64,000 nucleotides of DNA from contig NZ_JADKPZ010000001.1 of NCBI RefSeq assembly GCF_016106035.1, positions 124,001-188,000 of the forward strand. The letters are read 5' to 3'. This DNA comes from Arcobacter vandammei (GTDB lineage Bacteria; Campylobacterota; Campylobacteria; Campylobacterales; Arcobacteraceae). The position numbers and the translations under genes were made by a program. The notes under the pieces were generated by a model. It made no database searches and was not told where the DNA came from. It worked only from the letters and a program-made list of their open reading frames with translations. Each line of letters opens with the position of its first letter. Within the stretch, counting starts at the first letter, position 1. Positions 19,761 through 24,120 of the stretch are shown one piece after another.

Positions 19761-20255
19761 CTATAATTTGGCTAATCTATCTAAAATATACTTTTGTAAA
19801 TCTCTTTTAGAAATCTCTTCTCTCATTGCACTTTGAAAAAATTTATTTACTTGTAAATTGTACTCTTCATAAGAAAAAAATGGGAAATGTAAACTCCAAG
19901 CCTTTTTAATAGTCATTTTTGTCATACTATATTTTAATAAAGCCATAAAATAATTAAAGCCCATAAAAATTAGTGCTGTTATTATCATAGCCCCAATTAT
20001 TGAAATATGTGCATCTATATTTGCCAAAGATTTATGTGTTAAAAAAGAGATAGGAACAATAATTGCCAAGACCAAATTGATATATACAATATAAGCTCTA
20101 GTTAGTCTTAATCTAAATCCTAATCTTGAGCTATCTACTTCCATTCCATTGCTAAATTGTGTAGAAGCAACTAACATATCTTTTAATAAAATAGGTTGTT
20201 TTGATGTATTATAAACATAGTTTAATATTTTGTTAAAAAAACTTTTTTCTCTCAT
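19761..20255 (-). CDS. Uncharacterised two-span membrane protein
   Basis: Protein of 164 residues with two hydrophobic segments near the middle (about 53-72 and 85-108) flanked by charged cytoplasmic ends; no signal peptide. I do not recognise the family. Lies alone between dacA-like and carA, with about 115 bp of AT-rich non-coding DNA upstream. Confidence 0.75.
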   Translation of the reverse strand: MREKSFFNKILNYVYNTSKQPILLKDMLVASTQFSNGMEVDSSRLGFRLRLTRAYIVYINLVLAIIVPISFLTHKSLANIDAHISIIGAMIITALIFMGFNYFMALLKYSMTKMTIKKAWSLHFPFFSYEEYNLQVNKFFQSAMREEISKRDLQKYILDRLAKL

Positions 20256-20372: not shown

Positions 20373-21467
20373 CTATTTTACTAAAGAAGAAAATTCTTTA
20401 TAGATTGGTGAGTTTGAAATAGGTGTAAATTCACTGCTTAAAATATCGTTATTTTTATATTTTAAAGCAACTGTATTATTTGTAAATACATTTGTGTAAG
20501 TACTATTTGCAAAGCTTTCAAAGTCTTTTACAGCATATTGTGTATTTAAAGAGTAAAGTTCAACTGCTTTTTCACCTTTTATTGGATGACTTCCTGATTT
20601 AATAGAGTTTATTTTCTCTATTTTAGCACCATTAGCAAGTGCTAAAAGATAGTGTCCTAATCCAACAGCAAGAATTGGAAGATTTGCAGAAACTAGTTTT
20701 CTTATATTTTCTACTTCATTTTTGTAAAGATTTGGATTTCCAGCACCACTACTTAAAACTACTCCACCAATTTTATTTGATTTATATTTTTCTATTATAT
20801 CTTCAGCTTTTGTATTAAATGGAATAACTTCAACTTCAAGACCAGATTCAACAAGTTCATTTAAAAAAGATTTTTTAGCTCCAAAATCATAAACTACAAC
20901 TTTTTTATCGCTCATACTAGCTTTTCTAAAGTCATTTAAATCCATATCCCAAGCACCAGATTTATGAATATAACTATCTTTTGTAGAACTATCTTCTATA
21001 AAATTAATTTCATCATATTTTTTTGCATCTTTTAAAAGCTTTGCTAACTCTTCTTTACTAGAAATTTCTGTTGAAGCAATCATCATCATACTTCCTTCAT
21101 CTCTAGCTATTTTTGTTAAAAATCTTGTATCTATATCACAAATTCCCATTACATTTTCAGATTTTAAAAAATCTGCTAAACTCATTTCTGCTCTATAGTT
21201 TGAATAAGCATCATGATAATTTCTTACAATTACACCAGAGGTATATGCTTTTGAACTCTCCATATCATTTTTATTTGTTCCACTATTTCCAATTTCTACA
21301 GCCATAAAATTTATAAAAAGACCTGCATTGCTTGGATCTGTGATTACTTCTTGATAACCGAATGTCGCATTGTTATAAACTAATTTTCCTATTGCAGTTT
21401 TATTTGCACCAAAAGAGCATCCTTCTAAAAATGTCCCATTTTCTAAATAAATATATACTTTTTGCAT
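20373..21467 (-). CDS. carA: Carbamoyl-phosphate synthase small chain, amidotransferase triad lost
   Basis: Protein of 364 residues, clearly CarA over its whole length: N-terminal YLENGTFLEGCSFG, GYQEVITDPS, DIDTRFLTKIARDEG, and the interdomain VVYDFGAKKSFL. In the glutaminase domain the catalytic residues are gone. The nucleophile position in LPILAVGLGHYLLALA is Gly269 instead of Cys, the next Gln is Tyr273, and the C-terminal HPEA motif reads TPIS (Thr348, Ile350). The fold-level motifs are kept (LSSGAGNP, SGSHPIKG). By homology to E. coli CarA (Cys269, His353, Glu355) it should not hydrolyse glutamine; the holoenzyme would use ammonia. It overlaps the DUF507 gene as TAATG. carB is not in the window. 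Confidence 0.9.
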   Translation of the reverse strand: MQKVYIYLENGTFLEGCSFGANKTAIGKLVYNNATFGYQEVITDPSNAGLFINFMAVEIGNSGTNKNDMESSKAYTSGVIVRNYHDAYSNYRAEMSLADFLKSENVMGICDIDTRFLTKIARDEGSMMMIASTEISSKEELAKLLKDAKKYDEINFIEDSSTKDSYIHKSGAWDMDLNDFRKASMSDKKVVVYDFGAKKSFLNELVESGLEVEVIPFNTKAEDIIEKYKSNKIGGVVLSSGAGNPNLYKNEVENIRKLVSANLPILAVGLGHYLLALANGAKIEKINSIKSGSHPIKGEKAVELYSLNTQYAVKDFESFANSTYTNVFTNNTVALKYKNNDILSSEFTPISNSPIYKEFSSLVK

Positions 21468-22018
21468 TAAATTAATCCTCTTTTTATTAACTCTTCTTCA
21501 TAAAGTCTATGATACACCAAATCATAGTCCTCAGTTCCTGGAATTAGTTTTCTCTTATAGTTTCTAAGTTTAGCTAAAACCTCACTATCTGCTTTTTCAA
21601 ACCCTTTAATAAAATCATCCAAAGAACCAAATATTACATTCTTTATTTGGTTATCTGAACAAGTAAAATGTATATAATCCTCCTCCCATAGATAATCTAA
21701 TATTTTGTGAGCAATATCAGAGAATCTATCTTCATTGTTTAAGATAACTCCAAAATCATTTGCAAGTCTTTTTTTTGTCATCCAAAAAAGTTGTCTTCTA
21801 TCAGCATTTAAATACTCAATCTCTTCTTCTTGTGCATCTAAAATCTCTTGAACTTTCTCATCAAGTAAATGTTCTTTTTCTATATCTTCATCTAAAATTC
21901 TTTCAACTTGCTCTTCTATACTAGCCTTATCTTTTCTTACTTCAACAAATTCACAAGAGATTAAATCTCTTGTTATTCTTCTTGAAACATATGGTGTATG
22001 GTGTAATTTTAATCTCAT
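21467..22018 (-). CDS. DUF507-family protein
   Basis: Protein of 183 residues, acidic and helical, with the duplicated DUF507 layout: an opening MRLKLHHTPYVSRRITRDL and a repeat-like EIEYLNADRRQLFWMTKKRLANDFGV segment. Function unknown. It sits 2 bp after purA and overlaps carA, so it belongs to a nucleotide-synthesis operon; the association with purA and carA is the only functional hint. Confidence 0.85.
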   Translation of the reverse strand: MRLKLHHTPYVSRRITRDLISCEFVEVRKDKASIEEQVERILDEDIEKEHLLDEKVQEILDAQEEEIEYLNADRRQLFWMTKKRLANDFGVILNNEDRFSDIAHKILDYLWEEDYIHFTCSDNQIKNVIFGSLDDFIKGFEKADSEVLAKLRNYKRKLIPGTEDYDLVYHRLYEEELIKRGLI

Positions 22019-22020
22019 GC

Positions 22021-23274
<1,254 letters not shown>

Positions 23275-24120
23275 TTACCCTTCTGTTATTTTTAATAAAT
23301 TATCTGTATATAGTGCAAATCCCAAAGAACTAATACCATCTGCTTCATACATTCCACCTCTACAAAGCACTAGATTATCTTTGATTACTCTATAATAAAT
23401 ATCGTTATAGTATTTTAAACTTCCATAATATAAAGGTGCTATTACGATATTTGAATAATTTACCTCTTTTGCTTTTTTTAGAAGTTTTTCTAACTCATCT
23501 TTTAAACTATTTGGAACTATTTTTATAACTTCTTCTAAATTCTCTATATTTCCAACTCTTAAAAGTTTATTTAACCAATCACAATTTAATTTAATTAACT
23601 CCGAAATTTCACCATTTTTTAGTAAATCAAGGCTAATATTTAATTCACTACTTACAAGTTTTGGAATATTAATATTTGATATTTGTAAAATTGGATTTAT
23701 TTTTAATGCTTTTAATATATCAGCTGTTAAGTTTAAAATATCAGATATATTACTATGTTCAATCCACTCACAACCTATTTGATAATCTTCCTTAGATGGA
23801 TAAGAAAAAATAGGTTGAACATAAAACCATTTTTTTTGCTTTGTTGTTCTTCCTAATCTTTTTGTAATAATTCTTACAACATCTAAAGTTGAATCAGCTC
23901 TTAATGAAACTTGCTCATTTGATTCATCTGAAAACTTTATAAGTTTTCTTTCATTTTCAATAGCTTGGTGTTGTGAATATGAGAAATTAGGTGTTAAAAT
24001 CTCTTCAAAACCTTTCTCTTCCAAAATTTGGCAAACACTATTTTCTAAAACTCTTTTTGCTTTTGCAGTTTTACCAAAATATAGACGACTTCCTTTTGGA
24101 ATTTCGTGTTCAAAAATCAT
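23275..24120 (-). CDS. hisZ: ATP phosphoribosyltransferase regulatory subunit, HisZ-like
   Basis: Protein of 281 residues related to histidyl-tRNA synthetase but lacking the tRNA-binding and complete catalytic parts. HisRS-like motifs: IPKGSRLYFGKTAKAK, EEILTPNFSY, LRADSTLDVVRIITKRL and RGGMYEADG at the C-terminus. HisZ activates the short HisG enzyme in the first step of histidine synthesis. It precedes purA, joining two ATP-consuming pathways that are linked by AICAR recycling. Confidence 0.85.
   Translation of the reverse strand: MIFEHEIPKGSRLYFGKTAKAKRVLENSVCQILEEKGFEEILTPNFSYSQHQAIENERKLIKFSDESNEQVSLRADSTLDVVRIITKRLGRTTKQKKWFYVQPIFSYPSKEDYQIGCEWIEHSNISDILNLTADILKALKINPILQISNINIPKLVSSELNISLDLLKNGEISELIKLNCDWLNKLLRVGNIENLEEVIKIVPNSLKDELEKLLKKAKEVNYSNIVIAPLYYGSLKYYNDIYYRVIKDNLVLCRGGMYEADGISSLGFALYTDNLLKITEG

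Follow-up and report, generated by a model that had tools for sequence, protein, structure and literature searches.

Loss of the glutaminase active site in CarA of an Aliarcobacter clade suggests an ammonia-dependent carbamoyl-phosphate synthetase

Introduction

Which nitrogen donor feeds a bacterial carbamoyl-phosphate synthetase (CPS) whose small subunit no longer carries the residues of a working glutaminase? The question is raised by the carA gene in the window analysed here, a 64,000-nucleotide stretch of the Arcobacter vandammei genome. One review names glutamine as the donor that every bacterial CPSase uses (PMC6245113), and a second source names it for every CPS type but vertebrate CPS1 (PMC4655335), which cannot use glutamine and takes external ammonia (PMC4655335). 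The original prediction for this locus was that its CarA had lost the whole catalytic triad and that the holoenzyme depends on ammonia in the manner of CPS1, a comparison that is correct as far as the vertebrate enzyme is concerned (PMC4655335). A literature search, with subscription journals mostly outside its coverage, returned no earlier description of a dead site, or of a missing catalytic Cys, in any bacterial CarA, and the paper describing the A. thereius genome records its carA only as the small chain (PMC5495459).

Results

An intact carA gene at a conserved locus

The carA frame opens with ATG and encodes 364 aa with zero internal stops. Its domains, its altered active-site positions and its conserved neighbours are placed in the window as follows.

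20373..21467, minus strand: carA, CarA with an apparently non-catalytic glutaminase domain, 364 aa (ORF, profile matches, alignment, AlphaFold model)
21081..21449, minus strand: CPSase_sm_chain N-terminal domain, residues 7-129 (PF00988, 131.7 bits)
20511..20897, minus strand: class-I glutamine amidotransferase (GATase) domain, matched part residues 191-319 (PF00117, 68.4 bits)
20661..20663, minus strand: Gly269 codon, replacing the nucleophile Cys269 (alignment)
20649..20651, minus strand: Tyr273 codon, replacing Gln273 (alignment)
20415..20426, minus strand: TPIS, residues 348-351, replacing H353-P-E355-A, with a 6-residue deletion (E. coli S357-D362) directly after (alignment)
21467..22018, minus strand: DUF507 gene, with a 1-base overlap with the carA start, conserved neighbour (PF04368, 249.8 bits; synteny)
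22021..23271, minus strand: purA, adenylosuccinate synthase, conserved neighbour (NF002223, 571 bits; synteny)
23275..24120, minus strand: hisZ-type ATP phosphoribosyltransferase regulatory subunit, conserved neighbour (NF008946, 433.9 bits; synteny)

PF00988 and PF00117 both score over their cut-offs in the one chain, which identifies the protein as a CarA by descent. Close relatives with a canonical carA have it in the same hisZ-purA-DUF507-carA arrangement, and the intact frame and normal operon context noted in the original prediction thus both hold. The neighbours are 80-91% identical to those of the canonical relatives, as opposed to only ~53% for CarA itself, and this gap, in combination with the shared locus order, argues for vertical descent with a burst of change rather than for replacement. 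Horizontal replacement of carA finds no support either in the locus, which is the same, or in the tree, where the sequence is nested among Campylobacterota CarA. The carB gene lies on a separate contig (C12), and the small and large parts are unfused, carA ending at 20373. Downstream of carA, a 164-aa ORF without a Pfam match (19761-20255 of the window, minus strand) is 83-84% conserved in the two nearest relatives.

Active-site loss throughout one Aliarcobacter clade

Alignment to E. coli K-12 CarA places Gly at Cys269, Tyr at Gln273, Thr at His353 and Ile at Glu355, with His272 retained, exactly the Cys, Gln and HPEA-to-TPIS changes of the original prediction; the Cys-His-Glu triad of a glutamine-hydrolysing subunit therefore reads Gly, Thr, Ile. 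The loss extends further than first described, to His312 (Thr), Asn240 (Ser), Pro242 (Ala) and Asp244 (Asn), and to the loop after the triad, where E. coli Ser357-Asp362, including Gly359, Pro360 and His361, are deleted. No substitute Cys is invariant within the GATase domain across the clade. In line with these changes, the protein scores below the cut-off of the glutamine-hydrolysing family TIGR01368 (269.5 vs 307.35 bits) and above that of the broader NF009475 (257.6 vs 221). Judged by its residues, the GATase domain would have lost catalysis; its fold is kept in the structural model described below.

Loss of Cys, His and Glu together with the loop deletion is found in 16/16 rows from 13 species-level Aliarcobacter genomes, three of these rows being repeats of genomes already counted, and in 0/94 other Campylobacterota sequences; 80 loci from named genomes had been added to the Arcobacteraceae set. 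Among 104 Arcobacteraceae genomes the query matches 13 (itself included) at 64-100% identity, all from its own genus, the next match standing at ~54%; the site is dead in all 13, which include Aliarcobacter vitoriensis CECT 9230 and A. cryaerophilus LMG 9065, and canonical in every other Arcobacteraceae sequence read. When 397 Campylobacterota genomes were screened with TIGR01368, 372 scored above the cut-off, and the others comprise the dead-CarA clade members, 13 genomes that gave no match and two genes that are truncated. The original prediction had raised the possibility of a clade-wide loss, and the loss indeed spans one Aliarcobacter clade and is absent from the rest of the Arcobacteraceae and from the sampled Campylobacterota. 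It had also relied on there being no second carA, and this 99.99% complete genome holds a single copy.

In the CarA tree the 13 dead sequences occupy one branch (support 100/100) with a stem of 0.79 changes per site. We conclude that CarA lost its glutaminase active site a single time, on the branch leading to the Aliarcobacter clade, with the fold under selection throughout. The loss recurs in 13 species-level genomes, several of which are single-contig assemblies, and this leaves a negligible chance that a sequencing, assembly or frame error accounts for it.

Two loci of the sample deserve separate mention. At L077, from the metagenome-assembled genome Lapin-028 bin12 (G025), purA is 95% identical to ours, DUF507 only 83% and CarA 64%, with Gln273 present, a pattern that could reflect intra-operon recombination, a bin of mixed origin or a carA allele that branched off early. 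At L172 (G359:C1:16288-17399), a frameshift or an assembly error divides a Helicobacter-like carA into two frames that overlap (profile positions 2-83 and 81-360).

Independent erosion of carA elsewhere in the order

The CPSase_sm_chain domain is the sole part of CarA that survives in some relatives. Such N-only genes, and a shorter remnant, are located at the carA position beside DUF507.

L159:1507-1953, minus strand: N-only carA, 148 aa, after DUF507, genome G351; GATase domain cleanly gone, frame kept
L160:1495-1941, plus strand: N-only carA, 148 aa, after DUF507, genome G179; GATase domain cleanly gone, frame kept
L182:1486-1929, plus strand: N-only carA, 147 aa, after DUF507, genome G346; GATase domain cleanly gone, frame kept
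L183:1591-1821, minus strand: carA remnant, 76 aa, adjoining DUF507, genome G271; probably a pseudogene stage

G179 and G351 belong to another family of the order (f3); a different gene stands immediately after their N-only carA, and dN/dS between the two N-only genes is 0.12. Furthermore, no PF00988 match was obtained in G248, G299, G416 and G421 (closed genomes of one to three contigs) or in G383, all of which carry a full-length carB (loci L185, L186, L187, L188 and L191), and whose CarB, going by gene content, apparently works without any small subunit. Four drafts with carB and no carA match (G162, G205, G424 and G433) were left out of this count of losses: their CarB is canonical, so that carA may merely be missing from the assembly. 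As the N-only, remnant and absent states all occur outside Aliarcobacter, loss of the glutaminase has taken place more than once.

Selection on CarA and retention of its fold

Pairwise dN/dS within the dead-CarA clade is 0.08-0.28 overall and 0.10-0.30 for the GATase domain, compared with 0.04-0.10 overall for canonical carA pairs; clade carA is thus constrained, yet less so than its catalytic relatives. Values in this range argue against a decaying gene, and purifying selection together with a frame open in 13/13 species bears out the original prediction on this point. We nevertheless weighed a slow decay of CarA toward the truncated or absent states that other Campylobacterota show, a course that would be compatible with an ammonia-dependent CarB and would deny only a remaining role for CarA. 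GATase-domain dN/dS does exceed the canonical-pair values about two- to fourfold, and genomes of another family show what N-only, remnant and absent carA look like, but dN/dS remains far under 1, the frame is open in every species and new residues such as Gly269, Ala242 and Asn244 are fixed across the clade, all of which makes decay unlikely.

The AlphaFold model of CarA (pLDDT 86.9, with low confidence at residues 289-307) predicts a CarA fold, its best structural match being E. coli CarA (Z 45.7, 1.9 A over 356 residues); human CPS1 is matched at Z 39.5.

An intact CarB that drifts where CarA is dead or gone

CarB is full length and over the family cut-off in 13/13 dead-CarA genomes, and 24/24 catalytic or gate positions checked carry the E. 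coli residue. Positions 232, 251 and 314 served as gate positions, as the counterparts of the CPS1 gate (PMC4655335). The large subunit to which the original prediction looked for an ammonia tunnel is therefore complete, with its catalytic and tunnel-gate residues retained in sequence. This bears on the alternative that CarAB no longer makes carbamoyl phosphate and is kept for another role, with supply through, for example, citrulline or carbamate kinase. A carbamate kinase route does exist in Pyrococcus (PMC6245113), but the retention of all catalytic and gate residues checked in both CarB halves, scores well above the family cut-off and the presence of both carbamoyltransferase-type genes render it extremely unlikely here. 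Indeed, each genome has two OTCace_N genes (argF/pyrB-type carbamoyltransferases), and carbamoyl phosphate accordingly retains its two usual uses.

CarB drift was measured at 489 positions common to canonical Arcobacter, the Helicobacter-like G359 and E. coli CarB. Changes in Aliarcobacter CarB fall mostly within residues 1-553 (0.043 and 0.064 per domain) and barely within 554-936 (0.009); the E. coli CarB domains that contact CarA are 1-400 and 401-552 (PMC6245113). Substitutions common to 13/13 genomes are A118V, Q262A, T279S, A323S, I339M, A534G and T540N. Both Q262A and N266D/E flank Arg265, the residue that forms the tunnel wall with CarA residues 360/361.

The smoothed pattern of CarB change in Aliarcobacter correlates with that in the carA-less genomes (r 0.56, 0/2000 circular shifts as high), and the correlation is 0.44 after regression on CarA-competent CarB (0/900 shifts as high). 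Four segments (216-234, 255-289, 335-349 and 527-548), picked after viewing the dead-CarA and no-CarA groups with the controls unused in picking, change 1.7x as much as the remainder of residues 1-553 in Aliarcobacter; the ratio is 1.5x for the carA-less genomes and 0.4-0.6x for CarA-competent controls (E. coli, Helicobacter and the draft group). Genomes whose CarA is dead or absent thus show drift in stretches of CarB that CarA-competent controls conserve unusually well. The two clean N-only genomes still conserve these segments (ratio 0.6), and either the drift is not tied to mere loss of the GATase domain or the N-only loss is recent.

Other glutaminases and nitrogen economy

The genome encodes six class-I GATases, TrpG, GuaA, PyrG, HisH, PurQ and CarA, of which the five other than CarA were named by length, motifs and neighbours rather than by family search. 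These five keep HPE, and the Cys was read directly at the elbow in 4/5 (the search pattern missed GuaA), which rules out a general loss of glutaminases; nor is there an extra class-I GATase, beyond the usual set, to serve as a replacement. A glutaminase acting in trans, by which another amidotransferase would dock on CarB or feed it ammonia with CarA as a mere scaffold, would be in keeping with the retained fold of dead CarA and with the active-looking class-I glutaminases elsewhere in the genome; with all six accounted for and none to spare, we regard this arrangement as very unlikely.

Glutamate synthase (GOGAT) is encoded by a full-length gltB in 17/17 canonical congeners and is absent from 13/13 dead-CarA genomes, where searches gave a weak 1e-4 match or none, and glutamate dehydrogenase (GDH) is present in all 13. 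Genomes of the dead-CarA clade have one ammonium transporter or none, as against one to four in others. Absence of GOGAT, presence of GDH and few ammonium transporters fit a lineage that meets ample ammonium. The association between GOGAT and CarA loss lies on one evolutionary branch and counts as one observation only. Our literature search, again with most subscription journals beyond its coverage, found no prior report on GOGAT or GDH in Aliarcobacter.

Discussion

We consider it highly probable, at roughly 0.87, that the biosynthetic CPS of these Aliarcobacter species is an ammonia-dependent analogue of vertebrate CPS1 in which CarA persists as a structural component, ammonia presumably serving as the donor in the cell. 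The dead CarA presumably still pairs with the intact CarB, and the complex would use bicarbonate, two ATP and free cytoplasmic NH3 to make the carbamoyl phosphate needed for arginine and pyrimidines; the 357-362 loop deletion or the CarB changes may open a path for this NH3 from solvent. Blocking or perforating the glutamine tunnel of E. coli CPS leaves ammonia-driven activity in place, and human CPS1 has been proposed to take a side path bypassing its dead glutaminase site (PMC4655335). The E. coli enzyme is, on the other hand, reported to require very high ammonia (PMC6245113), so the Aliarcobacter enzyme must either have a better ammonia affinity or work in a high-ammonium cytoplasm.

CarA may be retained to stabilise CarB, which we regard as the likely reason for its persistence. 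Effectors of E. coli CPS bind CarB (PMC6245113), and allostery, which the original prediction offered alongside structure, is accordingly a less likely reason to keep CarA. The carA-less relatives suggest that the need for CarA-mediated stabilisation can itself be lost.

E. coli CarAB is homologous to the Aliarcobacter enzyme and shares its domain order, its fold and the catalytic residues of CarB, but its CarA has an active Cys-His-Glu triad and uses glutamine, whereas Aliarcobacter CarA is without the triad. G359F in E. coli CarA opens an escape route for ammonia, and the segment that contains Gly359 is deleted in Aliarcobacter. The E. coli mutants C269S (1c30) and G359F (1m6v) are engineered single changes, whereas Aliarcobacter CarA is a natural protein under selection, altered at Cys269 and in the Gly359 segment alike; the G359F structure tops the structural matches of our CarA model, tied with other E. 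coli CarA chains. In vertebrate CPS1, too, the GATase-like domain is kept as a catalytically dead fold, a state that the residues of Aliarcobacter CarA imply as well. CPS1 differs, however, in being one fused chain rather than separate subunits, in needing N-acetylglutamate and serving ureagenesis where the Aliarcobacter role is presumably biosynthetic, and in carrying Ser for the catalytic Cys where Aliarcobacter CarA has lost Cys, His and Glu altogether. Its tunnel is blocked by Gln at Gly293, a residue that Aliarcobacter retains in 16/16 clade rows while deleting the Gly359 loop. A further shift from glutamine to ammonia arose independently in CPS III of Alcolapia fish, which, unlike Aliarcobacter CarA, keeps its triad, has lost one glutamine-binding residue and can still use glutamine (PMC7657897). 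Ammonia-dependent CPS is thus already known from vertebrates, and the shift toward it from one fish; a bacterial CarA with a dead site is apparently new.

In a broader perspective, Campylobacterota have probably arrived at an ammonia-dependent biosynthetic CPS more than once: through the death of the CarA active site in Aliarcobacter, through reduction to an N-domain-only CarA in two other genera, and through carA loss with carB kept and its CarA-facing surface freed from constraint. These states would form a natural series with glutamine-channelling CPS at one end and free-ammonia CPS at the other, and in Aliarcobacter the change would have gone along with GOGAT loss.

A bacterial clade in which the only detected CPS small subunit is dead contradicts the generalisation that glutamine serves all bacterial CPSases, and the automatic 'glutamine-hydrolysing' annotation is misleading for these genomes. 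Dead, truncated or absent CarA beside an intact CarB makes both the non-glutaminase role of the small subunit and the entry of external ammonia, which are long-standing questions, directly testable with natural enzymes. The Aliarcobacter CPS would give CPS1 a natural counterpart among bacteria, and its residues suggest that the nitrogen of ammonia, not glutamine, enters arginine and pyrimidines in these organisms, which fits their loss of GOGAT and an ammonium-rich habitat.
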